Shown: positions 22,931 through 64,000 of the stretch, one piece after another
Numbering within the stretch: position 1 is the stretch's first letter
How the letters are laid out: each line of letters starts with the position of its first letter
NCBI GenBank assembly: GCA_030429345.1
Contig: JAUIFJ010000002.1
Coordinates: 123,074 to 187,073, forward strand
Source of the DNA: a bacterium
GTDB lineage: Bacteria > CAIWAD01
Direction of reading: 5' to 3'
DNA: 64,000 bases
Notes under the pieces: model-generated
What the model saw: only the letters and a program-made list of their open reading frames with translations
Databases searched by the model: none
What the model was told of the DNA's origin: nothing
Translations under genes and position numbers: made by a program

Positions 22931-23309
22931 CTCCGCACGATGATCGTGCGGTTCTATGCAACGACCGCGATGCGGTCGCCGGCCGGCCCACCTTTCACCC
23001 TTCGCGGGGAATGCACTAGTTCGACCTTCATGTTTCTCGGCGGGGAAACCCGACACGACCCCATAGGGGTCGCTGCATATAGCCGCAGATGAAATCTGCG
23101 GGCATCCAATAATCCCCGTATACTCCGCACGATGATCGTGCGGTTCTATGCAACGACCGCGATGCGGTCGCCGGCCGGCCCACCCTTCATCCTTCGCGGG
23201 GAATGCACTGGTTCGACCATCAGGTTTCTCGGCGGGGAAACCCGACACGACCCCATAGGGGTCGCTGCCCATAGCCGCAGATGAAATCTGCGGGCATCCA
23301 ATAATCCCC
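22931..23309. repeat. Two tandem 192-bp units rich in perfect hairpins
   Basis: Unit 1 is 22931-23122 and unit 2 is 23123-23309, differing at about eight positions. Each carries two twin-hairpin modules facing each other. Rightward module in unit 1: hairpin 22933-22951 (stem CCGCACGA), a spacer with TATGCAA, then hairpin CGACCGCGATGCGGTCG (22962-22978). Leftward module: hairpin 23056-23072 (CGACCCC, loop ATA) and hairpin CCGCAGATGAAATCTGCGG (23083-23101). The same module recurs at 52694-52739, 63554-63598 and 63778-63822. No reading frame here looks coding. It is probably a dispersed palindromic repeat of the BIME/REP kind. The 300 bp after it hold no feature I can name. Confidence 0.88.
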
Positions 23310-52566: not shown

Positions 52567-52693
52567 CTTCCTGTCTCTCCCCGCGCTCCAGGCTGAATCA
52601 CACGGCGGTGTCCGGCATGCATGGTCACCGTTTCCGGCGAATAGCAGCGGTCATACGCCCGCGGCGGAAGCATGCATCACGGCCATGATTTAC

Positions 52694-53030
52694 CGACCAC
52701 ATCGCGGTCGCTGCCTAAAGCCGCCGGTGAATCCGGCGGGAGACAATGCACGCCCAATGCCGTTTGCTCAAGGCCGGAACGCCTCGTGCTGCGAAGGGTG
52801 TCACACGGCGGAGGGGGTTGGTCCTGGGAAAGGGTGGGGGTCGTGGTGTGCGTGGGGGTGGGATTGTCTTTCGCGGGGGAAGGTGCGCCAAACTGGGAGA
52901 GGGGGTTGGCCGCGAAAGACATCCCTAGGGATTGGTGCGCCAGGCGCGCACACTATTATGAAGCCTCTCCGTACAAAAACCACCACTGGCACGCCGGGGG
53001 CGTGCCAGTGGTGGTTTTTGTACGGAGAGG
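52694..53030 (-). repeat. tRNA-Ser(CGA)-linked palindromic element
   Basis: Read on the minus strand from the tRNA 3' end, this holds a 67-bp palindrome (53030-52964), a GTGCGC-type hairpin, a CCTAGGGATGTCTTTCGCGG segment with a distant CCGCGAAAGACAATCCCAC partner, and a twin-hairpin module at 52739-52694. The same parts in the same order, at nearly the same distances, follow tRNA-Ser(GGA) at 63266-63598. The module ends about 330 bp from the tRNA in both copies. Its hairpin near 52694-52710 has one mismatch, so this copy looks more decayed. No gene is convincing between 52567 and 53022. Confidence 0.82.
52964..53030 (-). terminator. Perfect 32-bp-arm palindrome ending the tRNA-Ser(CGA) transcript
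   Basis: Arms 52964-52995 and 52999-53030 are exact complements around a 3-base loop. On the tRNA strand the stem core is ACTGGCACGCC and a T-run (GGTTTTTG) follows, as in an intrinsic terminator. The outer 8 bp of the first arm are the last 8 bases of the tRNA gene. Confidence 0.85.
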
Positions 53031-53110
53031 GTGGGATTCGAACCCACGGTAGGCCAAAGGCCTACAACAGATTTCGAGTCTGCCCCGTTCAGCCGCTCCG
53101 GCACCTCTCC
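53023..53110 (-). tRNA. tRNA-Ser(CGA)
   Basis: An 88-nt class II tRNA on the minus strand. The acceptor GGAGAGG pairs with CCTCTCC and the discriminator is G. The D-arm has GCCGGAGCGGCTGAAC. The anticodon stem CAGA/TCTG encloses CTCGAAA, giving anticodon CGA. There is a long variable arm, and the T-loop is GGTTCGAATCC. CCA is not encoded. It decodes UCG. Confidence 0.95.
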
Positions 53111-53127
53111 TGGAATGCGAAGCGATG

Positions 53128-53155
53128 AAGATAGCATTCGTGGCAGGACATGGAA
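53128..53155 (-). promoter_or_regulatory. Likely promoter of tRNA-Ser(CGA)
   Basis: On the minus strand TTCCAT (53155-53150) and TATCTT (53133-53128) are 16 bp apart. The tRNA begins 17 bp after the -10 box. Confidence 0.5.
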
Positions 53156-53262
53156 GCGGCCCGGGAGAGGAGCAATGCGCGGGGGGGCGCTTTTCCGTTT
53201 GCCGGGGCTGATCGGCTTGCTAGATTTTCGCATCACACAGTTCGTCCAGCGGGAGAGCCTCC

Positions 53263-54396
53263 ATGCGATTCAACAAGAGCCGTTCCTTTCCGGAACTGAG
53301 CGACCTGACCATCGGGATCGAGGAAGAGTACCAGATCGTCGATCGCCGAACGGGGGAGCTGACGAGCATCGTCAGCGAGATGCTCGAGCAGGGGAAAGTG
53401 CTCTTCCGCGACCAGGTCAAGCCGGAGATGCTGCAGTCCCAGATCGAGATCGGCACCACGGTCTGCCGCTCGGTGGCCGAGGCGCGCACCGAGCTGCAGC
53501 GTCTGCGCGGAATGGTCTCCGAAGTGGCGGAGAAGAACAACTGCGCCATTGTCGCCGCCGGCACCCACCCCTTTTCCCACTGGGAGAAGCAGAGCGTCGT
53601 CGACAAGGAGCGCTACCTGGGCATGATCAAGGACACGGCGATGATCGCCCGCCGCATGCTGATTTTCGGCATGCATGTGCACATCGGCATCAAGGACCCG
53701 GACCTGCGCGTCGACATCATGAACCAGATGAACTACTTCATGCCGCACATCCTGGCGCTCAGCACCAGCTCGCCCTTCTGGAACGGGCGTGAGACAGGCT
53801 TGAAAAGTTATCGCAAAATCGTCTTCAGCGACCTGCCCCGCACGGGTCTGTCCCCCTATTTCGAGACGCATGGCGAGTACGAGGATTATATCAATACGCT
53901 GATCCGCACCAAGTGCATCGCCGAGCCGACCAAGATCTGGTGGGACATGCGGCCGCATCCCAGGTTTCCGACCCTGGAAGTGCGGGTCTGCGACTGCATG
54001 ACCTCCGTCGAGGAGGTGATTTCCGTCGCCGCGCTGATCCAGGCCCTGGCCGCCAAGCTGATCCGCCTGCGCCTGCAGAACCAGAGCTGGCGCCTGTATC
54101 ACCACGGCCTGCTCAACGAGAACATGTTCCGGGCGATCAAGGACGGCGTCAACGGCACGCTGCTGGACCTGGGGCAGGGAAGCGAGGTCCAGGCCCGCTT
54201 CCTGATCGAGGAGCTGGTGGATTTCGTGCGCGACATGGCGGAAATGCTGGGGACGGAGGAGGAGCTGCAGGGCGTTTTGCGCATTCTCAAGACCGGCACC
54301 AGCGCAGACCGACAGCTCAAGGTCTTTCGCGAGAAGGGCGAGATCAAGGCGGTGGTAGACCACTTGTGCGAAGAAACCCTGAATGGGGTCCAGTAA
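53263..54396 (+). CDS. Carboxylate-amine ligase, YbdK-type (GCS2 family)
   Basis: A 377-residue glutamate-cysteine ligase family 2 protein. It has TIGIEEEYQIVDRRTGEL at the N-terminus, IEIGTTVC, GTHPFSHW near residue 107 and FGMHVHIGI with the metal-binding His near 145. Then come RIVFSDLPRTG-like and TLEVRVCDC segments. YbdK enzymes have weak gamma-glutamylcysteine ligase activity; the physiological product is unknown. It stands alone, with an independent gap on both sides. Confidence 0.88.
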   Translation: MRFNKSRSFPELSDLTIGIEEEYQIVDRRTGELTSIVSEMLEQGKVLFRDQVKPEMLQSQIEIGTTVCRSVAEARTELQRLRGMVSEVAEKNNCAIVAAGTHPFSHWEKQSVVDKERYLGMIKDTAMIARRMLIFGMHVHIGIKDPDLRVDIMNQMNYFMPHILALSTSSPFWNGRETGLKSYRKIVFSDLPRTGLSPYFETHGEYEDYINTLIRTKCIAEPTKIWWDMRPHPRFPTLEVRVCDCMTSVEEVISVAALIQALAAKLIRLRLQNQSWRLYHHGLLNENMFRAIKDGVNGTLLDLGQGSEVQARFLIEELVDFVRDMAEMLGTEEELQGVLRILKTGTSADRQLKVFREKGEIKAVVDHLCEETLNGVQ

Positions 54397-54616
54397 GCGA
54401 TTCCGGCTCGCAGGCCCCCCCGCCAGGCCGTTTCGGCCTTGCCGCTGAGGAGCGAAAACTTTCTTTTTCATTTGAAAATTGTTAGATGACCTAAAGAATA
54501 TTCTTTGTCTTTAGGGGTATTGGCAATTCTTCTGCCAGCGCGCCCCCGCGATTCCCATTTCAGCCGAAAATTGCCGATACTTGCTTCCCTGAACTGATCA
54601 GAACCAGAGGACCCTC
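54397..54616 (+). promoter_or_regulatory. Promoter region of the pyruvate dehydrogenase operon
   Basis: This 220-bp gap has a clear AT-rich island (about 54460-54520), including TTGAAA (54472-54477) and GAATAT 18 bp later. A TGGC...TGC arrangement at 54521-54536 has sigma-54-like spacing but an imperfect -12 box. AGAGGA lies 6-8 bp before the aceE ATG. Confidence 0.4.
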
Positions 54617-57283
54617 ATGAGCGATCTGTCCAAGGACCGGGAATACACCGAACAGGAAACCCGGGAATGGCTCGAATCCCTGGATGACGTCCTGCGCTTC
54701 AGCGGCCCCGAGCGGGTCGGCGAACTGCTGCAGCAGCTGCGTCACCATGCCCGGCAGCATGGCATCCGGTTGCCCTTCGAACCGACCACGCCCCTGACCA
54801 ATACCATCTCCAGGCAGGAACAGCCGCCCTATCCCGGCAACCGCGAACTGGAACGCCGCATCAAGAGCATCATCCGCTGGAACGCCATGGCCATGGTCGT
54901 GCGCGCCAACCAGGAACAGAGCGGCATCGGCGGACACATCAGCACCTACGCTTCCGCGGCCACGCTCTACGAAGTGGGCTTCCAGCACTTCTTCCGCGGC
55001 AAGGGCAAGGACCGCAGCGGGGACATCATCTTCTTCCAGGGGCACGCCTCTCCGGGCATCTACGCCAGGGCCTTCCTGGAAGGGCGTCTCACGGAACAGC
55101 ACCTGGAGAACTTCCGTCACGAACTGCGTGATACACCCGGCCTGAGCAGTTATCCGCACCCCTGGCTGATGCCCGAATTCTGGGAGTTCCCGACGGTCTC
55201 CATGGGCCTGGGGCCGATCCAGGCGATCTACCAGGCCCGCTTCAACCGCTACCTGGAAGACCGCGGCCTGAAGAAGAACACGGCCCGTGTCTGGGCCTTC
55301 CTGGGCGACGGGGAGACGGACGAGCCGGAAAGCCTGGGCGCCATCACCCTTGCATCACGCGAGGGGCTGGACAACCTGACCTTCGTCATCAACTGCAACC
55401 TGCAGCGGCTGGACGGTCCGGTGCGCGGCAACGGGCAGATCATCCAGGAGCTGGAAGCCGCCTTCCGCGGCGCGGGCTGGCACGTGATCAAGGTGATCTG
55501 GGGAAGCGACTGGGACCCGATCCTGCAGCAGGACAGCGAGGGCCTTTTGCGCAAGCGCCTCTCGGAGATCGTCGACGGCGAGTACCAGAAGCTGAGCACC
55601 GAGGGCGGCGCCTACGTGCGCGAGCGCCTCTTCGGCAGCGATCCGCGCCTGATGAAGATGGTCGAGCACCTGAGCGACGACCAGCTGGCCCGGCTCAAGC
55701 GCGGCGGACACGATCCCGAGAAGGTATACGCGGCCTACAACGACGCCGTGCATCACAAGGGCAAGCCGACGGTGATCCTGGCGATGACCGTCAAGGGCTA
55801 CGGCCTGGGCGAGGCCGGCGAGGGCAAGAACATCACGCACCAGCAGAAGAAGCTCAACGTCAAGGAGCTGCTCGAGTTCCGCACGCGCTTCGGCATTCCG
55901 CTGTCCGACGACCATGTCGGCAAGATGCCTTTCTACAAGCCTCCCGAGGACAGTCCGCTGGTGCAGTACGTGCAGGAGCGCCGGGAGAACCTGGGCGGCT
56001 ACGTGCCGACGCGCATCGGCGAGTCACCCCGGCTCAAGACGCCGGGCAAGTCGGTTTTCGGCGAGTTCGCCAAGGGCAGCGAGGGGCGCGAGCTGTCGAC
56101 GACCATGGCCTTCGTGCGCATGCTCTCCAGCCTGCTCAAGGACAAGGACATCGGTCGCCAGGTGGTGCCGATCGTGCCCGACGAGGCGCGGACCTTCGGC
56201 ATGGAGGCTCTCTTCCGCCAGTGCGGCATCTATTCGCACAAGGGGCAGCTCTACGAGCCCGTCGACGCCCAGAGCCTGCTGTACTACAAGGAAGCCGAGG
56301 ACGGCCAGATCCTGGAGGAAGGGATCACCGAGGCCGGCGCCATGAGCAGTTTCATTGCCAGCGCCACCTCCTATGCCACGCATGGTGTGACAACGATTCC
56401 CTTCTACATCTACTATTCCATGTTCGGCTTCCAGCGCATCGGCGACCTGGCCTGGGCGGCGGCCGACATGCGCGCCCGCGGCTTCATGCTCGGGGGGACG
56501 TCCGGTCGCACGACTCTGGCCGGCGAGGGACTGCAGCACCAGGACGGCAACAGCCACATCCAGGCCCTGCCGATCCCCAACCTGATGTGTTACGACCCCG
56601 CCTTCGCCTACGAGCTGGGCGTGATCATCGAGGACGGACTGGAGCGGATGTACGAGAAGCAGGAAGACATCTTCTACTACATCACCGTGCTCAACGAGAA
56701 CTACGTCCATCCGCCCATGCCGGAAGGCGCCCGCGAAGGCATTCTGCGCGGCATGTACCTCTTCCGCGCCGCGGAGAATCCCGGCAACCGCGCAAGGGTG
56801 CAGCTCTTCGGCAGCGGCAGCATCCTGAACGAGGTGATCGCCGCCGCCGAAATCCTGAAGGGAATCGGCGTCGAAGCGGACATCTGGAGCGTGACGAGCT
56901 ACAAGGAACTGCGGCGCGAGGCCCTCGAGGCGGAGCGGAGCAATCGCCTGAATCCGGGCGGCAAGCGCCAGGTGCCCTGGGTCAGCTCCTGCATGGAGGG
57001 GCACCCCGGTCCCATCATTGCCGCCAGCGACTACATGAGCGCGCTGCCTGATCTTGTCTCACGCTGGCTGCCGGAGGACATGATCCCCCTTGGCACGGAC
57101 GGCTTCGGGCGCAGCGAGGGACGCGGCGAACTGCGGGACTTCTTCGAGGTCGATCGCCGCTGGATCGCCTGGGCCGCCGCCAGCGAACTGCACACGCGCA
57201 AGAAGCTGCGTGTCACGGTGCTGAAGAAGCTGGCCAAAGAACTCGAGCTGGACCTGGATCGGCCCTCTCCCTGGACCCGCTAG
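54617..57283 (+). CDS. aceE: Pyruvate dehydrogenase E1 component, homodimeric AceE type
   Basis: An 888-residue thiamine diphosphate enzyme, matching the single-chain E1 of about 890 residues. The TPP motif is GDGETDEPES (about residue 232) ending NCNLQRLDGPVRG. Other AceE landmarks are GIGGHISTYASAATLYEVGF, FFQGHASPGIYARAFLEGR, and in the C-terminal half VPIVPDEARTFGMEALFRQ and SNRLNPGGKRQVPWVSS. It decarboxylates pyruvate and acetylates the lipoyl group of AceF. It is followed after 9 bp by aceF and then lpd, giving a complete PDH operon. Confidence 0.96.
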   Translation: MSDLSKDREYTEQETREWLESLDDVLRFSGPERVGELLQQLRHHARQHGIRLPFEPTTPLTNTISRQEQPPYPGNRELERRIKSIIRWNAMAMVVRANQEQSGIGGHISTYASAATLYEVGFQHFFRGKGKDRSGDIIFFQGHASPGIYARAFLEGRLTEQHLENFRHELRDTPGLSSYPHPWLMPEFWEFPTVSMGLGPIQAIYQARFNRYLEDRGLKKNTARVWAFLGDGETDEPESLGAITLASREGLDNLTFVINCNLQRLDGPVRGNGQIIQELEAAFRGAGWHVIKVIWGSDWDPILQQDSEGLLRKRLSEIVDGEYQKLSTEGGAYVRERLFGSDPRLMKMVEHLSDDQLARLKRGGHDPEKVYAAYNDAVHHKGKPTVILAMTVKGYGLGEAGEGKNITHQQKKLNVKELLEFRTRFGIPLSDDHVGKMPFYKPPEDSPLVQYVQERRENLGGYVPTRIGESPRLKTPGKSVFGEFAKGSEGRELSTTMAFVRMLSSLLKDKDIGRQVVPIVPDEARTFGMEALFRQCGIYSHKGQLYEPVDAQSLLYYKEAEDGQILEEGITEAGAMSSFIASATSYATHGVTTIPFYIYYSMFGFQRIGDLAWAAADMRARGFMLGGTSGRTTLAGEGLQHQDGNSHIQALPIPNLMCYDPAFAYELGVIIEDGLERMYEKQEDIFYYITVLNENYVHPPMPEGAREGILRGMYLFRAAENPGNRARVQLFGSGSILNEVIAAAEILKGIGVEADIWSVTSYKELRREALEAERSNRLNPGGKRQVPWVSSCMEGHPGPIIAASDYMSALPDLVSRWLPEDMIPLGTDGFGRSEGRGELRDFFEVDRRWIAWAAASELHTRKKLRVTVLKKLAKELELDLDRPSPWTR

Positions 57284-57292
57284 GAGATTCCC

Positions 57293-58630
57293 ATGGCATA
57301 CGAATTCAAACTCCCCGAACTGGGCGAGAACATCGAGGCCGGCGACGTCGTGCGCGTGCTGGTGAAGGTCGGCGATGCCGTGTCCGAAGGCGACACGCTC
57401 TTCGAGCTGGAGACCGACAAGGCCGTTGTCGAAGTGCCGGCCGACAAGGGCGGCACGGTGACGGAAGTCCGTGTCAAGGAAGGCGAGAAGGCCAGCGTGG
57501 GGCAGGTGCTGCTCGGCCTCGACAGCTCCGGGGCCGAGGCGGATGCCCCGGCGCAGGAAGAACCCTCGGCAGCACTGGAAAACGACTCTGTGGGCGAGAG
57601 CGGGGAAGACACCCGGGAAGCGGAACTTTCGGCTGCTCCTGCGGAAGAGCCACAGCCTGCCCCGAAGGCGGATGCCGCTCCGCCGGCCTCCCCCGGACCC
57701 TCAGGCGAGGCGGAGGAGGGCCAGCGCCTGGCCGCCCCCGCCGCGCCCTCGGTGCGCAAGGAAGCCCGGGAGCTGGGCGTGCGCATTGCCGATGTCGCCG
57801 GAAGCGGACCGCGGGGACGCATCACGATTTCCGATGTGCGCTCCCATGTCCGGAACCTCAATCGTGCCCATGCCCCCGGCAGCCAGGCTGCCCAGGGGGC
57901 GATGCCCGGCGGCCTGAGCCTGCCGGACCTCTCCCGCTTCGGCGGGATCCGGCGCGAGGCGATGAGCAATGTGAGACGGGCCACCGCGCGCCACATGGCG
58001 GCGACCTGGAACACGGTGCCCCAGGTCACGCAGTACGACAAGGCCGACGTCGGCGCTCTCGAGACGCTGCGCAAGCAGTTGGCGCCGGAAATGCCCAACG
58101 GGCGGCTGACCATGACGGCGATCCTGCTCAAGGTGGCGGCCGCGGCTCTGCGGCGCTTTCCCGAGTTCAACGCCAGTGTCGACATGCAGAGCGAGGAGAT
58201 CGTCTACAAGGACTACGTCCACGTGGGCGTCGCCGTAGACACTCCGCGCGGCCTGCTGGTACCCGTGATCCGCGACGTGGACCGCAAGGGCATTGCCGAA
58301 CTGGCGGAAAGCCTGGACGAACTGTCCGCAAGGGCCAGGGAACGGAAGACCGGTCCGGAGGAGCTGCAGGGGGGCTGCTTCACCATCAGCAACCTGGGGG
58401 GCATTGGCGGAACGGCCTTTTCGCCCATCGTCAATTTCCCGGAAGTGGCCATCCTGGGCGTGAGCCGCGCCGAGCGCGTGGCGGTTCCGGTCGGTGAGGG
58501 CTTCGAGGCACGGCTGCAGATGCCGCTCAGCCTGTCCTACGACCATCGACTGATCGACGGCGCGGCGGCTGCCCGCTTCCTGCGCTGGATCTGCCGCGCC
58601 CTGGAGCAGCCCCTGCTGCTCAGCCTGTAG
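57293..58630 (+). CDS. aceF: Dihydrolipoamide acetyltransferase (PDH E2)
   Basis: A 445-residue E2. It has one lipoyl domain with Lys43 in ETDKAVVEV, a long Ala/Pro/Glu linker (about 80-145), a peripheral subunit-binding domain (about 148-190: APSVRKEARELGVRIADVAG) and the catalytic domain with the active-site His418 in YDHRLIDGAAAARF. Proteobacterial partners of single-chain E1 often carry two or three lipoyl domains; here there is one. GGAG sits 6 bp before the ATG. Confidence 0.95.
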   Translation: MAYEFKLPELGENIEAGDVVRVLVKVGDAVSEGDTLFELETDKAVVEVPADKGGTVTEVRVKEGEKASVGQVLLGLDSSGAEADAPAQEEPSAALENDSVGESGEDTREAELSAAPAEEPQPAPKADAAPPASPGPSGEAEEGQRLAAPAAPSVRKEARELGVRIADVAGSGPRGRITISDVRSHVRNLNRAHAPGSQAAQGAMPGGLSLPDLSRFGGIRREAMSNVRRATARHMAATWNTVPQVTQYDKADVGALETLRKQLAPEMPNGRLTMTAILLKVAAAALRRFPEFNASVDMQSEEIVYKDYVHVGVAVDTPRGLLVPVIRDVDRKGIAELAESLDELSARARERKTGPEELQGGCFTISNLGGIGGTAFSPIVNFPEVAILGVSRAERVAVPVGEGFEARLQMPLSLSYDHRLIDGAAAARFLRWICRALEQPLLLSL

Positions 58631-58648
58631 ACGAGAAGGACCACCACC

Positions 58649-60058
58649 ATGAGCGATACCCGACACATTGCCGTCATCGGCGGCGGCCCGGGCGGCTACG
58701 CGGCCGCTTTCCATGCCGCCTCACGCGGATTCCGCACGACGCTGATCGACACTCGTACCACACCGGGCGGTGTCTGCCTGCATGTGGGCTGCATTCCCTC
58801 CAAAGCGCTGCTGCACGTGGCCAAACTGCTGGGCGAGACCGGCGAGGCGGGGCAGATGGGGCTGGACTTCGGCAAGGCCGCCATCGATCGCGAGAAGCTG
58901 GCCGGCTGGAAGGAATCCGTGGTCGAGCGCTTGACCGGGGGGCTGCTGCAGCAGTGCAAGCGACGCGGCGTCGAGTTCATCCAGGGACGCGCCCGCTACA
59001 AGAGCAGCACCCTGCTGGAGATCGAACTCGGCGATGGCGGTAGGCAGGAGCTTGCCGTGGATCACAGCATCCTGGCCAGCGGATCACGACCGTCGATGAT
59101 TCCCGGCGTCGAGGCCGGCGCGAAGATCTGGAATTCCACCGGCGGCCTGTCGCTGGAGACGATTCCGAAAAGCCTGCTGGTGGTCGGCGGCGGCTACATC
59201 GGCCTCGAGCTGGGCAGCGTATACGCCTCGCTCGGGAGCAAGGTCGACCTGGTGGAAATGACCGACGGGCTCCTGCCGGGCGCGGACCGGGACTTGGTGC
59301 GCGTGCTTTCAAAACGCGTTTCGAAGACCTTCAACGAACAGTACTTCCAGACGAAAGTGCTGAGTCTGAAGGAGCAGAAGAAGGGTGTCGCCGCCGTGCT
59401 CGAGTTGCCCGACGGCAAGGAACAGAAGAAGGTCTACGAGCGCGTACTGGTCTCGATCGGGCGTCGCCCCAATTCGGAAGACCTGGGACTTGAGCACACA
59501 GCGGTCGAGGTCAGCGACCGCGGCTTCGTCCAGGTCGACGACCAGCTGAAGACCGCCGATGCCGCCATCTCGGCCATTGGCGACGTGGTCGGGGACCCGA
59601 TGCTGGCGCACAAGGCCAGCCACGAGGCCCGGGTCGCGGTGGAAGTGATCGACGGCAAGAAGTCCCGCTTCGAACCGGCCTGCATTCCCGCCGTCGTTTT
59701 CACGGATCCAGAACTGGGCTGGGTCGGAATCACCGAGAACGAGGCAAAGGCCCAGGGCCGCGAGGTCAAAGTCTCACGCTTTCCCTGGGGCGCTTCGGGA
59801 CGAGCGCTGAGCCTGGAGCGCACCGACGGTGTCTGCAAGGTGATCGCCGACCCGGAAACGGATCGTGTGCTCGGCCTGGGAGTCGTCGGAGTCGGGGCCG
59901 GAGAACTGGTGGCGGAAGGTGCCCTGGCGATCGAGATGGGAGCCGTGGTCGAGGACCTGGCCCTGACGATTCATCCGCATCCGACCCTCTCGGAGACGAT
60001 CATGGAAGCCGCGGAAGTGTATTACGGACATAGCGCGCATTATTTTACGGGGAAGTAG
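58649..60058 (+). CDS. lpd: Dihydrolipoyl dehydrogenase (E3)
   Basis: A 469-residue flavoprotein disulfide reductase. It has FAD motif AVIGGGPGGYAAAFHA, redox-active cysteines Cys43 and Cys48 (CLHVGC), NAD motif VVGGGYIGLELGSVYASLG, and the C-terminal HPHPTLSE carrying the catalytic His-Glu. It reoxidises dihydrolipoyl groups of AceF. It is last in the aceE-aceF-lpd operon. The 81 bp after it hold no clear terminator. Confidence 0.96.
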   Translation: MSDTRHIAVIGGGPGGYAAAFHAASRGFRTTLIDTRTTPGGVCLHVGCIPSKALLHVAKLLGETGEAGQMGLDFGKAAIDREKLAGWKESVVERLTGGLLQQCKRRGVEFIQGRARYKSSTLLEIELGDGGRQELAVDHSILASGSRPSMIPGVEAGAKIWNSTGGLSLETIPKSLLVVGGGYIGLELGSVYASLGSKVDLVEMTDGLLPGADRDLVRVLSKRVSKTFNEQYFQTKVLSLKEQKKGVAAVLELPDGKEQKKVYERVLVSIGRRPNSEDLGLEHTAVEVSDRGFVQVDDQLKTADAAISAIGDVVGDPMLAHKASHEARVAVEVIDGKKSRFEPACIPAVVFTDPELGWVGITENEAKAQGREVKVSRFPWGASGRALSLERTDGVCKVIADPETDRVLGLGVVGVGAGELVAEGALAIEMGAVVEDLALTIHPHPTLSETIMEAAEVYYGHSAHYFTGK

Positions 60059-60139
60059 TTTTCTAGGAAGATTGAAGGTTGAAGAGGGTGAGGGCTGGAG
60101 TCGGGGATTGGCTAGACTGTTTTTCGGTGTGACAAACGG

Positions 60140-61933
60140 TCAGCTCGTGCGATTCTCGGGGTTTTCTTCGCTTTTCTGGATCCAGCGATAGACGCTGCGT
60201 TCGCTCATGTTGAGCCGGCGGGCCGTCTGCTTGACGTTGCCCCCGCATTCGGCGTGGATCTGTTTCACGATGCGGCGCGAGTAGGACTGTGTCAGGGCAT
60301 CGAAATCCAGCTGTTCCCGATCCAATTGAGGCGTCCAGGCGCTGCTCTCGTGATGAATGGGAATTCCATCCTCCAGGTCCAGGTGCTCAGGAAGGATCTC
60401 GTGTCCGGATTTGTGCCAGGCGCTGGTCAGGGTATTGAAGAGCTCGCGCACGTTCCCCGGAAAGGCGTGCTGCTCCAGGGCATGCAGGGCCGCTTCGCCG
60501 ATTGTCTTGTAGAGGCCGTTTTCACGGTTCAGCTGTGTGACGCGGAACTGCGCCAGGGTGCGCAGGTCCTGGTCCCTCTCGACGAGACGGGGCAGACGCA
60601 ACTTGACCTGGTTGAGTCTGTGATACAGTTCCTGGCGGAAGCCGTCCCGGTTGCGCAGGTCCTGGTTCGTTGCCGCAATGACGCGCACGTTGGACCGCAC
60701 CTCGTGGGCCGAACCCAGCGGATAGAAGATGCCGTTGTCCAGGAAACGGAAGAGATTGGCCTGTGTTTCCAGGGGCAGCTCGCCGATCTCGTCCAGGAAG
60801 AGCGTGCCGCCATCGGCGCGCTGCACGAAACCGATGGTGTCCGCCGCCGCCCCGGAGAAAGCGCCCTTCAGGTAGCCGAAAAGCTTGGCCTCGGCCAGGT
60901 TGCTCCCGAGGTGGTAGCAGTTGACGGCCACGAAGTTCTTGTCGGCCCGGTGACTCTGCTCGTGCAGGGCCCGTGCCACCAGCTCCTTGCCCGTTCCGGA
61001 TTCGCCCAGGATCAGGACATTGAGGTCCGTCGAGGCGTACTTGTCGATGGCGCGGCGCAGTTCGAAGATCGGCTCCGAATCCCCGACGATCCCGTGGCGC
61101 TGTGAGACAAGAATCGTCGGCGGATTGCCCAGCTGGCTGATCACGGAATTGCACAGGCGCGGAATCTCCTGCATGTGTTCCGGGCACTGGTCCCCGATGC
61201 GGGCCTGCAGGGCGCGGGCCTGTTCCAGCAGCTCCGTGTCGCGCCGCCCTTCTTTCCATGCGAGGCGCAGCTGGAAGTACTCGACCATCAGTTCCAGTTC
61301 ACGGCTGTTGCCCAGCTCGCGCAACCGTGTGATGCAACGCTGGGCAAGGGAGATGTCCTCCTCGAGGCCATGGTAGAAGCAGGCCGTCAGCAGGTATTCC
61401 GACTCGCATTCCTCCGGAGGGATGTCCCGCAGCACGGGCGCCGCCTTCGAGAGGTCGCGGCATTTCAGGCAGGCGAGTCCCAGCATCTGCCGCGTGGCCG
61501 CGCCATCCTGCGGATTTTCCAGCCCTTCTGCCAGCAGCTGCCAGCCTGAGCCGTCGTGATCCATGACCCGCACCAGTCCCTGCCAGGCCTTGGCGATCCC
61601 GGCGCGGTGGCCGGCATCCTGCCGGTACTGGTCGAGGCATTCGCCGCTGAGGCGCGTGTCGTCCAGCAGCACGGCAATCATGCCATAGTTCAGGAGCGCA
61701 TTGTTGCGATAGGCGGGATTGAGGTCCTCCTGGGCCAGCAGCTTGCGGTAGGCGCGCACGGCCTCCGCGTGGCGGCTGAGGTGATACAGGGCGTTGGCCT
61801 TGTAGAACAGCAGGGCCTGGCGGTGTTCCGGCGTACAGCGGTCCAGGTCGCTGTCGATTCCGGTGACACAGGCCTGGTAGTCCCGCCTGTCGTAGGCCTT
61901 CAGGGAGGCATATGTGGCCAGCAGGCCCGCCAC
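60140..61933 (-). CDS. Sigma-54-dependent activator with N-terminal TPR-like region
   Basis: A 597-residue protein. The first 270 residues are helical repeats of TPR type (for example ALLFYKANALYHLSRHAEAV, then YRKLLAQEDLNPAYRNNALL), replacing the usual receiver or PAS sensor. The AAA+ domain (about 290-510) has LGESGTGKELVARALHEQS, the sigma-54 contact loop GAFSGA (Ser for Thr in GAFTGA) and GGTLFLDEIGELPL. The Fis-type HTH is at the C-terminus (CGGNVKQTARRLNMSERSVY). The GTG start lies 3 bp after the stop of the secreted beta-helix gene, so the two are cotranscribed. Confidence 0.9.
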   Translation of the reverse strand: MAGLLATYASLKAYDRRDYQACVTGIDSDLDRCTPEHRQALLFYKANALYHLSRHAEAVRAYRKLLAQEDLNPAYRNNALLNYGMIAVLLDDTRLSGECLDQYRQDAGHRAGIAKAWQGLVRVMDHDGSGWQLLAEGLENPQDGAATRQMLGLACLKCRDLSKAAPVLRDIPPEECESEYLLTACFYHGLEEDISLAQRCITRLRELGNSRELELMVEYFQLRLAWKEGRRDTELLEQARALQARIGDQCPEHMQEIPRLCNSVISQLGNPPTILVSQRHGIVGDSEPIFELRRAIDKYASTDLNVLILGESGTGKELVARALHEQSHRADKNFVAVNCYHLGSNLAEAKLFGYLKGAFSGAAADTIGFVQRADGGTLFLDEIGELPLETQANLFRFLDNGIFYPLGSAHEVRSNVRVIAATNQDLRNRDGFRQELYHRLNQVKLRLPRLVERDQDLRTLAQFRVTQLNRENGLYKTIGEAALHALEQHAFPGNVRELFNTLTSAWHKSGHEILPEHLDLEDGIPIHHESSAWTPQLDREQLDFDALTQSYSRRIVKQIHAECGGNVKQTARRLNMSERSVYRWIQKSEENPENRTS

Positions 61934-61936
61934 GGA

Positions 61937-62989
61937 CTAGTCGTCCCACTTTCCGATTTCCGCCACCACCCTCACGTAGCGCATGCGCGTCTGCGCGATG
62001 GGAAGGGTGAAGTCGGGAGTGGTCGTGATCAGGTCCGGTTCCGCGGAGAACTGGTAGGCGTTTTCCGAGAAGAAGACCTTGTAGCGGCTTTCCCGGCAGG
62101 GAATGCCGTCGACGCTGGTGATCCCCAGCGGGTCGATCGTCAGCGGCACTTCGCCAATGACCACGTCCTGGGGAATCAGCAGGGGCGCGCCGGCCTCGTA
62201 GGGCGTGTGACGCGGCTCCTGCGGCATGGTCGTAGCCTCGAAGAGTCCCTGGACGCGGCTGGTGTTGCCCGTGCTCAGGTATACATCGTTCAGGTTGACG
62301 GCTTCGCTTTCGCTGTGGTTGATCAGGTCCCAGTAGCGACTGTCGACAATGTCCACGTTGATCAGCGCGGGCACCTGGTCTCCGCGGATCTCGAGGCCCA
62401 CGTCGTTGCCCTGGAAGAGGCAGTCGCGGACGACCAGCTGGCTTTCGCTGACGACATCCAGACCCAGGTCATTGGTGAGGAAGACGCAGTCCTCCAGTTC
62501 CGCTTCGCCCTCCAGCAGGCGCAGGGCGGTTCCCGAAGCGCCGATGCGCGTGTCACTCAACTGCAGGTCCGAACCGGCCGTCGTCGAGTGGATCACGATT
62601 CCCTGCGCGCTCAGCACGGAGGCCTCGCTTTGAAGAGTGCCGCCCTCCAGCAGGATCGCCTCGTCGATGGCTTCGACGCGACAGGAAGTCAGCGCCAGTT
62701 CCTGCCCTTCGGATACGGTGATCGGAAAGCCGTTCTCACGCCCCACATCCTCGATCAGATGCAGGTTGATCAGTTCCACGCGGCCGCTTTCGTTCCAGCT
62801 GATCCAGCTCCAGTCGATCCGTTCGCGGTTCATGTCCTTGTCCACGACAAGGGTATCGCCCGCGGGCAGTTCGAACTGTCCGGACTGGAACAGCTGGCTG
62901 GCGGTGAATTCCCACCGCCCGGCCCACAGGTTTCCTGCCCATGCGAGACTGATCAACAAGCCCGCGGAAACCATTGTTCGCAAGTACAT
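61937..62989 (-). CDS. Secreted right-handed beta-helix protein
   Basis: A 350-residue exported protein with a signal peptide (LLISLAWAGNLWA). The centre is a series of short rungs such as VEAIDEAILLEGGTLQSEAS, DCVFLTNDLGLDVVSESQL and DCLFQGNDVGLEIRGDQV, typical of a parallel beta-helix. The C-terminal 80 residues form another beta region. No catalytic residues could be picked out. It resembles in style the beta-helix lipoprotein at 6887-7969 but lacks the lipobox. It is paired with the TPR/sigma-54 activator. Confidence 0.7.
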   Translation of the reverse strand: MYLRTMVSAGLLISLAWAGNLWAGRWEFTASQLFQSGQFELPAGDTLVVDKDMNRERIDWSWISWNESGRVELINLHLIEDVGRENGFPITVSEGQELALTSCRVEAIDEAILLEGGTLQSEASVLSAQGIVIHSTTAGSDLQLSDTRIGASGTALRLLEGEAELEDCVFLTNDLGLDVVSESQLVVRDCLFQGNDVGLEIRGDQVPALINVDIVDSRYWDLINHSESEAVNLNDVYLSTGNTSRVQGLFEATTMPQEPRHTPYEAGAPLLIPQDVVIGEVPLTIDPLGITSVDGIPCRESRYKVFFSENAYQFSAEPDLITTTPDFTLPIAQTRMRYVRVVAEIGKWDD

Positions 62990-63139
62990 TGGGGTGCTCC
63001 TCCCTACACAAGGCCGTCCCAGGGGGGGATTGGGGCGGCTGCTGCCAAGTACCGCTATAATAAGGATGTGCTTGAGCGGAGACCAGTGAAAAATCAGTCA
63101 GGCAGGATGAGTCTTCTAAATGAACCCGGCGACCCTTCT

Positions 63140-63168
63140 TTGCATGCCAAGGCTCCAATTCCTACAAT
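63140..63168 (+). promoter_or_regulatory. Promoter of tRNA-Ser(GGA)
   Basis: TTGCAT (63140-63145) and TACAAT (63163-63168) are 17 bp apart, and the tRNA starts 20 bp after the -10 box. Another TATAAT (63056-63061) lies further upstream. Confidence 0.72.
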
Positions 63169-63188
63169 CCAAGCTCGGCGAAAAACCC

Positions 63189-63273
63189 GGAGAGATGACC
63201 GAGCGGCTGAAGGTGCACGCCTGGAACGCGTGTGTAGGGCAACCTACCGTGGGTTCGAATCCCACTCTCTCCG
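63189..63273 (+). tRNA. tRNA-Ser(GGA)
   Basis: An 85-nt class II tRNA. The acceptor GGAGAGA pairs with TCTCTCC and the discriminator is G. The D-arm contains GACCGAGCGGCTGAAG. The anticodon stem CACGC/GCGTG encloses CTGGAAC, giving anticodon GGA. There is a long variable arm and the T-loop is GGTTCGAATCC. CCA is not encoded. It decodes UCC and UCU. Confidence 0.95.
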
Positions 63274-63332
63274 TATGAAAAAGAGAACTGGCACGCCCCC
63301 GGCGTGCCAGTTCTCTTTTTCATACGGAGAGA
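63266..63332 (+). terminator. Perfect 32-bp-arm palindrome ending the tRNA-Ser(GGA) transcript
   Basis: Arms 63266-63297 and 63301-63332 are exact complements around CCC. The stem core ACTGGCACGCC is shared with the tRNA-Ser(CGA) palindrome, while the next bases differ (GAGA here, CCACC there) with matching changes in the other arm. A TTTTT run makes it an intrinsic terminator. The outer 8 bp repeat the tRNA 3' end in inverted form. Confidence 0.88.
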
Positions 63333-63598
63333 CTTCCTAATAAAGTGCGCGCCTAGCGCACAATTCCTTAGGGATGTCTTTTGCGGCCAACCACGTATCC
63401 CACCATGACGCACGATCCCCCGCAAAAGACAATCCCACCCCGGGCATACCGAGAGTGTACTGGTGGCACACGGAACCGCACCGCCCGGGCAACACGCGTT
63501 GTGTACCCAACGATCCGGGCGTTGGTTGAATAAATGGGTGTGCTCGCCTTTCGCGCCGGATTCACCGGCGGCTTTATGCAGCGACCGCGATGCGGTCG
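63266..63598 (+). repeat. tRNA-Ser(GGA)-linked palindromic element
   Basis: Second copy of the tRNA-linked element. It contains the palindrome above, hairpin GTGCGC/GCGCAC (63345-63361), TTAGGGATGTCTTTTGCGG with a distant CCGCAAAAGACAATCCCAC partner (63420-63438), and a twin-hairpin module: CGCCGG-ATTCA-CCGGCG (63554-63570), spacer with TTATGCAG, and CGACCGCGATGCGGTCG (63582-63598). Confidence 0.82.
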
Positions 63599-64000
63599 GG
63601 TCTTTTGCGGCACGCGCCCCTTCCCGCAGTGACGCACGATCCCCCGCAAAAGACAATCCCACCCCGGGCATACCGAGAGTGTACTGGTGGCACACGCTAC
63701 CGCGCCGCCCGGGCAACTCGCGTTGTGTGCCGAACGATCCGGGCGTTGGCGGAATGAATGGGCGTGCTCGCCTTTCGCGCCGGATTCACCGGCGGCTTTA
63801 TGCAGCGACCGCGATGCGGTCGGGTCTTTTGCGGCCAGCGCCCCTTCCCGCAGTGACGCACGATCCCCGCAAAAGACAATTCCGCCCTGGGCATACCGAG
63901 AGTGTACTGGTGGCACACGCTACCGCGCCGCCCGGGCAACTCGCGTTGTGTGCCGAACGATCCGGGCGTTGGCGGAATGAATGGGCGTGCTCGCCTTTCG
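63377..64000 (+). repeat. Tandem array of 224-bp units continuing past the window edge
   Basis: TCTTTTGCGG recurs at 63377, 63601 and 63825, exactly 224 bp apart, and CACGAT at 63411, 63635 and 63859. Units 1 and 2 are complete and unit 3 is cut by the window end. Each complete unit ends with the twin-hairpin module (63554-63598 and 63778-63822). Since 224 is not a multiple of three, the open frames across it shift from unit to unit, so it is not coding. Spacing and unit size exclude a CRISPR array. Confidence 0.92.

Follow-up and report, generated by a model that had tools for sequence, protein, structure and literature searches.

Two tRNA-Ser genes in a 64,000-nucleotide stretch of a bacterial genome (GTDB lineage Bacteria; CAIWAD01; GenBank assembly GCA_030429345.1, contig JAUIFJ010000002.1, positions 123,074 to 187,073; hereafter the window) are each followed by the same palindrome-rich sequence, here called the tail. 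On balance, we favor the explanation that the tail is a divergent module resembling the tRNA-linked repeats (TLRs) of Escherichia coli, placed 3′-terminally in three tRNA-Ser transcription units, spread among them by recombination and acting as a terminator and 3′ trailer. To judge from sequence identity, the tails appear to have passed from one tRNA gene to another instead of descending with their hosts.

Affinities of the tRNA bodies and their tails

In the window, ARAGORN detected one gene each for tRNA-Ser(CGA) and tRNA-Ser(GGA). Querying the complete genome with the GGA tail revealed a third copy, behind tRNA-Ser(GCT) on contig C46, beyond the two recognized in a preliminary description of this DNA. 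When all 43 tRNA genes of the genome were checked, as that description had proposed, an inverted copy of at least 8 nt of the gene's own end within the next 150 bp was present in just three, all of them tRNA-Ser (CGA, GGA and GCT). None of the other 40 tRNA genes has a tail, and these include the fourth tRNA-Ser gene, tRNA-Ser(TGA), located just upstream of GCT. Many tail-free genes have an ordinary hairpin and a T-run at the same place. The earlier idea that tRNA-Ser 3′ ends are targeted holds for this genome alone; related tails elsewhere lie behind different tRNAs.

We compared these genes with those of three sister genomes (G001, G002 and G003), which belong to the same family but to other genera. 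Every tRNA body has its closest counterpart in the sister-genome tRNA with the same anticodon (85–89% identity for GGA, 71–81% for CGA and 76–78% for GCT), whereas the three tailed tRNA-Ser bodies of this genome are 66–72% identical to one another. The tails show the reverse: those of this genome share 74–79% identity, whereas the tail of G003 tRNA-Ser(GCT) is 55–62% identical to them and 62% identical to that of its GCT ortholog. Moreover, the acceptor stem of tRNA-Ser(CGA) is GGAGAGG/CCTCTCC in this genome and GGAGGAG/CTCCTCC in both G001 and G002, a change expected if the tail arrived along with the last bases of the tRNA. The 5′ flanks, set side by side and judged by eye rather than by formal alignment, show no visible similarity. 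In the relatives, an ordinary terminator follows the GGA gene of G002 and the CGA genes of G001 and G002, a tyrosine integrase lies about 110 bp downstream of the GGA and GCT genes of G001, and a diverged palindrome tail follows the GCT gene of G003.

Anatomy of the tail and of the adjoining repeats

The features of the two window loci are as follows. P1, P2 and P4 denote hairpins, and the basis of each assignment is given in brackets.

53023–53110, reverse strand: tRNA-Ser(CGA) (ARAGORN and Rfam RF00005)
52964–53030, reverse strand: P1 of the CGA tail, a 67-bp perfect palindrome (sequence; pattern search of the genome itself)
52935–52951, reverse strand: P2 of the CGA tail, hairpin GTGCGC-GCCTG-GCGCAC (sequence; two of six pairs covary across four loci)
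52860–52925, reverse strand: P4 of the CGA tail, long hairpin GGGATGTCTTTCGCGG...CCGCGAAAGAC(A)ATCCC (sequence and covariation)
52856–52865, reverse strand: direct copy AATCCCACCC of the T-stem/acceptor, 157 nt past the tRNA end (equaled or surpassed by 1.4% of shuffles)
52693–52740, reverse strand: REP-like twin hairpin on the CGA side, marking on the right the end of homology with the GGA tail
63188–63274, forward strand: tRNA-Ser(GGA) (ARAGORN and Rfam RF00005)
63266–63332, forward strand: P1 of the GGA tail, a 67-bp perfect palindrome (sequence)
63345–63361, forward strand: P2 of the GGA tail, hairpin GTGCGC-GCCTA-GCGCAC (sequence and covariation)
63371–63436, forward strand: P4 of the GGA tail, long hairpin GGGATGTCTTTTGCGG...CCGCAAAAGAC(A)ATCCC (sequence and covariation)
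63431–63438, forward strand: direct copy AATCCCAC of the T-stem, 156 nt past the tRNA end (equaled or surpassed by 5.8% of shuffles; weak on its own)
63554–63599, forward strand: REP-like twin hairpin on the GGA side
63376–64000, forward strand: tandem array of 224-bp units (long-hairpin pair, spacer and twin hairpin), 2.8 copies to the end of contig C8
52866–52920 (CGA) and 63376–63430 (GGA): GTCTTTYGCGG...CCGCRAAAGAC pair (sequence)

All the parts listed in the preliminary description (palindromes, GTGCGC hairpin, GTCTTTYGCGG pair and twin hairpin) were located, in the order given there. P1 of both window tails has 32 pairs without a mismatch around a 3-nt loop. The inverted copy of the last eight tRNA bases that had been described within it is exact: the tRNA-side arm contains the entire 7-nt 3′ strand of the acceptor stem and the discriminator G73, the other arm contains their inverted copy, and the pairing halts exactly there. 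In the GGA tail the inverted copy is CGGAGAGA, which fits its own acceptor, whereas the other loci have CGGAGAGG. Folded as RNA, P1 reaches −65.7 kcal/mol (z −17.2) in the CGA tail and −60.3 kcal/mol (z −17.3) in the GGA tail, and none of 200 shuffles was as stable in either case. Its center is made up of an A-tract, a GC stem and a T-tract, the sequence form of a bidirectional intrinsic terminator, and the hairpin occupies the terminator position of other tRNAs. The inverted acceptor copy sits past the T-tract, so that an RNA terminated in this tract would exclude it.

Further downstream, the closing parts of P4 are an inverted (GGGAT) and a direct (AATCCC) copy of the T-stem; in the GCT tail the direct copy is cut down to AATCCC. 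When the GGA and CGA loci are aligned, identity is about 81% between the T-arm and the far side of the long hairpin and drops to about 50% in the spacer, where the alignment nevertheless outscores all 500 shuffles. Near-identity then extends through the twin hairpin, at which the homology ends. Rfam returned tRNA as the only match above the gathering score in the window and 12 related loci, and it has no family for the tails. Behind tRNA-Ser(GCT) (L058:200–560), the long hairpin occurs in tandem with a period of about 115 bp and has a different stem, GACGATTGCGG / CCGCAATCGTC; the repeated hairpin includes CCTCTCCG, another direct 8-nt piece of the tRNA end.

The stems show covariation across four loci, namely the three tails of this genome and the G003 GCT tail. 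In P1, P2 and P4 together, 15 of the 54 pairs are altered on both sides, and 93% of the cells are paired; in a control with partners slid by 1–3 columns, 37–53% of the cells were paired and 1–4 pairs were double-changed. Position 7 of the acceptor mimic, which comprises exactly the seven acceptor bases and base 73, covaries with the host tRNA. In a modeled read-through RNA (the tRNA folded together with P1), the hairpin that takes over the acceptor strand was more stable than the cloverleaf with a shorter hairpin by 3.3–6.9 kcal/mol at all four loci, a comparison of nearest-neighbor energies alone, without tertiary structure.

The twin hairpin had been regarded as the end of the element. It is instead a separate dispersed repeat of the repetitive extragenic palindrome (REP) type, outside the tail proper. 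It is missing from both the GCT tail of this genome and the G003 tail, it recurs at loci without tRNA tails, and of the 26 matches obtained with the tail as query, most consist of the twin hairpin only. On contig C9, a gene of the Y1_Tnp family (PF01797) resembling REP-associated tyrosine transposases (RAYTs; L061:719–1195, reverse strand) has twin hairpins of the same type on both sides and is the probable source of the repeat. A short hairpin pair dispersed over many intergenic regions and a Y1_Tnp gene flanked by such pairs are the marks of REP/bacterial interspersed mosaic element systems with a RAYT. The twin hairpin of the CGA and GGA tails has both; the tRNA tail does not. The class to which the twin hairpin belongs is dispersed and not linked to tRNA genes.

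Like the GCT tail, the 224-bp array that continues the GGA copy had been missed in the preliminary description. The end of contig C88 (L057) is the same array repeat read from the opposite side of a break. Since C88 and C8 both end inside the array of the tRNA-Ser(GGA) tail, the assembly evidently broke there, and the two contigs are probably genomic neighbors. The tails of tRNA-Ser genes can thus break assemblies, two contigs of this genome stopping inside one. Elsewhere in the window (22931–23309), a 192-bp unit occurs twice with 96% matching and includes the REP-type second hairpin, GACCGCGATGCGGTC.

Resemblance to tRNA-linked repeats

TLRs were reportedly described in E. coli by Egan and Landy in 1978 and by Rudd in 1999; they include rttR of the tyrT operon. 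Although they have been known in that species since 1978, we are aware of no agreed function or origin. E. coli has 22 TLRs at ten loci, whose 3′-terminal 18–19 bp match the 3′ end of the gene upstream exactly; those at tRNA genes have no known function, and three rRNA-linked TLRs (rrA/rrB/rrF) bind Hfq/CsrA in vitro (PMC8144298). In the open-access literature, we found no account of TLRs outside E. coli. Each unit at tyrV/rttR combines an inverted GGGGAAGGAT with a GGTTCGAC-like core and hairpins, and it also holds the tRNA-Tyr end as a direct copy of 19 nt.

The tails resemble TLRs in lying directly 3′ of a stable-RNA gene, in this case three tRNA-Ser genes, in being multi-hairpin units of about 150–180 bp that can occur in tandem, and in beginning with an inverted and ending with a direct piece of the tRNA 3′ end. 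They differ in that the direct copy is 8–10 nt long instead of 18–19 nt, in that the inverted copy corresponds exactly to the acceptor strand and G73 within a perfect 67-bp palindrome, and in their confinement to tRNA-Ser in this genome.

Are there comparable tails in other bacteria? A pattern consisting of the tRNA-Ser T-arm and acceptor, a gap and an inverted CGGAGAG matched at least 117 loci, a number not used as a measure of prevalence. Among the matches listed, about half are tandem tRNA-Ser genes and not palindromes. Most of the others listed are true palindromic tails, found in Xanthomonadales, other Gammaproteobacteria, Burkholderiales, some Acidobacteria and Clostridia and a few other groups. 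In a broad sample, the pattern occurred in 9 of 386 genomes, and a long palindrome was seen by eye only in this genome and G003; the feature is therefore lineage-restricted and not universal.

The gammaproteobacterial tails (L138, L164, L129, L244, L258, L261 and others) agree with the window tails in both the order and the spacing of their parts (tRNA end, terminator hairpin, inverted copy, further hairpins, direct copy), and their ends likewise fit the host tRNA. The direct copy lies about 153–176 nt past the tRNA there and at +156/+157 here. In contrast, the gammaproteobacterial tails possess a core of several hairpins, with GGTTCGAC and further hairpins lacking here, between inverted and direct copies that are longer (up to 21 nt, linker included, and up to 19 nt, respectively, the latter reaching the length seen in E. 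coli). Some of them are in tandem. The tails L125, L129, L164, L236 and L258 contain a hairpin with GGA in or beside the loop (CACATGGATGTG, GTACAGGATGTAC); these hairpins presumably resemble the CsrA-binding consensus.

A model search of five such genomes detected tails behind tRNA-Ser genes of all four anticodons and behind tRNA-Gln, -Arg and -Tyr genes. In most cases the ends fit their own tRNA (Ser, Gln, Arg or Tyr), whereas the cores are 66–91% identical irrespective of whether the host is tRNA-Ser or tRNA-Gln. For example, the nearest core to that of Dyella GCT is that of Rhodanobacter CGA (91%), and a core behind a Dyella tRNA-Gln gene shares 88% identity with one behind tRNA-Ser. Since the cores are alike across hosts while the ends fit the host, the two have different histories. 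The covariance model R1 was built from 22 mostly gammaproteobacterial tails and has only seven base pairs.

Origin and role of the tail

In the mechanism that we favor, recombination in the form of gene conversion would have carried the tail from one tRNA-Ser gene to its counterparts, with the common GTTCGAATCCC-C-CTCTCCG sequence as the point of entry; in the CGA/GGA transfer, recombination would have left at the dispersed REP repeat. Hairpin-templated correction by template switching may then hold the inverted copy matched to the host tRNA. Several reports describe quasi-palindromes perfected by template switching, also in highly transcribed DNA (PMC3820800, PMC7202029, PMC8604942). Once in place, the module is predicted to act as terminator and 3′ trailer, and read-through would release a tRNA-linked RNA. 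The folding energies bring up a further, doubtful role for the inverted acceptor copy, that of an off-switch. Read-through RNA would zip up the hairpin and pull the acceptor strand out of the cloverleaf, giving a dead or differently processed precursor, and termination in the T-tract would permit the normal fold.

Several points weigh against this explanation. The transfer between loci is deduced from identity patterns at just three loci and one sister-genus ortholog. Termination and processing by the tail are predictions, and our terminator scan does not score P1 properly because the T-tract lies inside the stem. Moreover, the direct copies, of 8 nt (GGA), 10 nt (CGA) and AATCCC (GCT), fall short of the 18–19 bp typical of TLRs, and R1, which picks up other gammaproteobacterial tails, detects neither the window tails nor the E. 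coli rttR locus. Common descent is thus unproven and the resemblance architectural, which is why we call the tails TLR-like rather than TLRs.

How else could three tRNA-Ser genes have come by the same tail? Ordinary duplication of a tRNA-Ser gene and its flank, raised in the preliminary description and here combined with a later change of anticodon, would account for all three hosts being tRNA-Ser with common last bases. However, the bodies are orthologous by anticodon while the tails are alike within the genome, and the 5′ flanks show no similarity to the eye; duplication is therefore ruled out, barring parallel replacement of the relatives' tRNAs. It is unlikely that the tail is an old RNA or terminator module of tRNA-Ser, vertically inherited and kept by selection without moving between loci. 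Such a history would be in line with the strong covariation, the terminator position and the fact that the GCT gene has a tail in G003 as well as in this genome, but it conflicts with the tail identities, which are higher among the different tRNA-Ser genes in a single genome than for the GCT orthologs of two genera, the reverse of the bodies, and with the patchy presence of tails, the CGA and GGA orthologs of relatives being followed by an ordinary terminator or an integrase. Transfer by REP/RAYT activity, the twin hairpin being a REP doublet mobilized by the Y1 transposase with the tail hitch-hiking, seems very improbable. In its favor, homology between CGA and GGA breaks off precisely at this hairpin pair, which also bounds the 224-bp array on either side, and a Y1_Tnp gene lies between such pairs in this genome; yet the GCT and G003 tails lack the twin hairpin, and it stands alone at many loci without tails.

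An origin by site-specific integration is unlikely, although movement of the tail by an integrase is possible. Here a tyrosine recombinase would have used the tRNA-Ser 3′ end as its bacterial attachment site (attB), and the palindrome and T-stem copies would be attachment (att) material left by mini-elements. The landing place is the same as that of integrase elements at tRNA genes, the GGA and GCT tRNA-Ser genes of G001 each have a tyrosine integrase downstream (56% identical to each other), and the direct copies in TLRs resemble att repeats. The use of tRNA-Ser by known elements, such as the int elements of Dichelobacter nodosus (PMC2593044), also speaks for this origin. Nonetheless, the direct tRNA 3′-end repeat that bounds an integrase element was not found: no second tRNA-Ser 3′ fragment that could serve as the right-hand site (attR) occurs in this genome at 0–1 mismatch, and reading of the flanking open reading frames revealed no integrase. 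The long copy is inverted and not direct, and the G001 integrases adjoin tRNAs without a palindrome, their best homologs here being just 22–39% identical and located away from the tails. With no recombinase gene adjacent and no tRNA fragment at the far end, the tail does not qualify as the autonomous element that had been envisaged. In the DNA read, the two G001 integrases, L079 (G001:C95:7552–8670) and L084 (G001:C26:3081–4157), have no tRNA fragment at the far end and are possibly solitary integrases living at tRNA-Ser. A phage or viral source of the palindrome was also considered and rejected, as the two IMG/VR matches are chance ones without palindrome or tRNA.

If the tail is indeed a TLR-like module, the TLR architecture extends to a distant and poorly sampled lineage. 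The wider comparison divides it into two layers, a core moving between tRNA genes and ends fitting the host tRNA. This division makes both its origin (recombination with template-switch correction, or an integrase) and its role (terminator, precursor processing or acceptor sequestration) testable.

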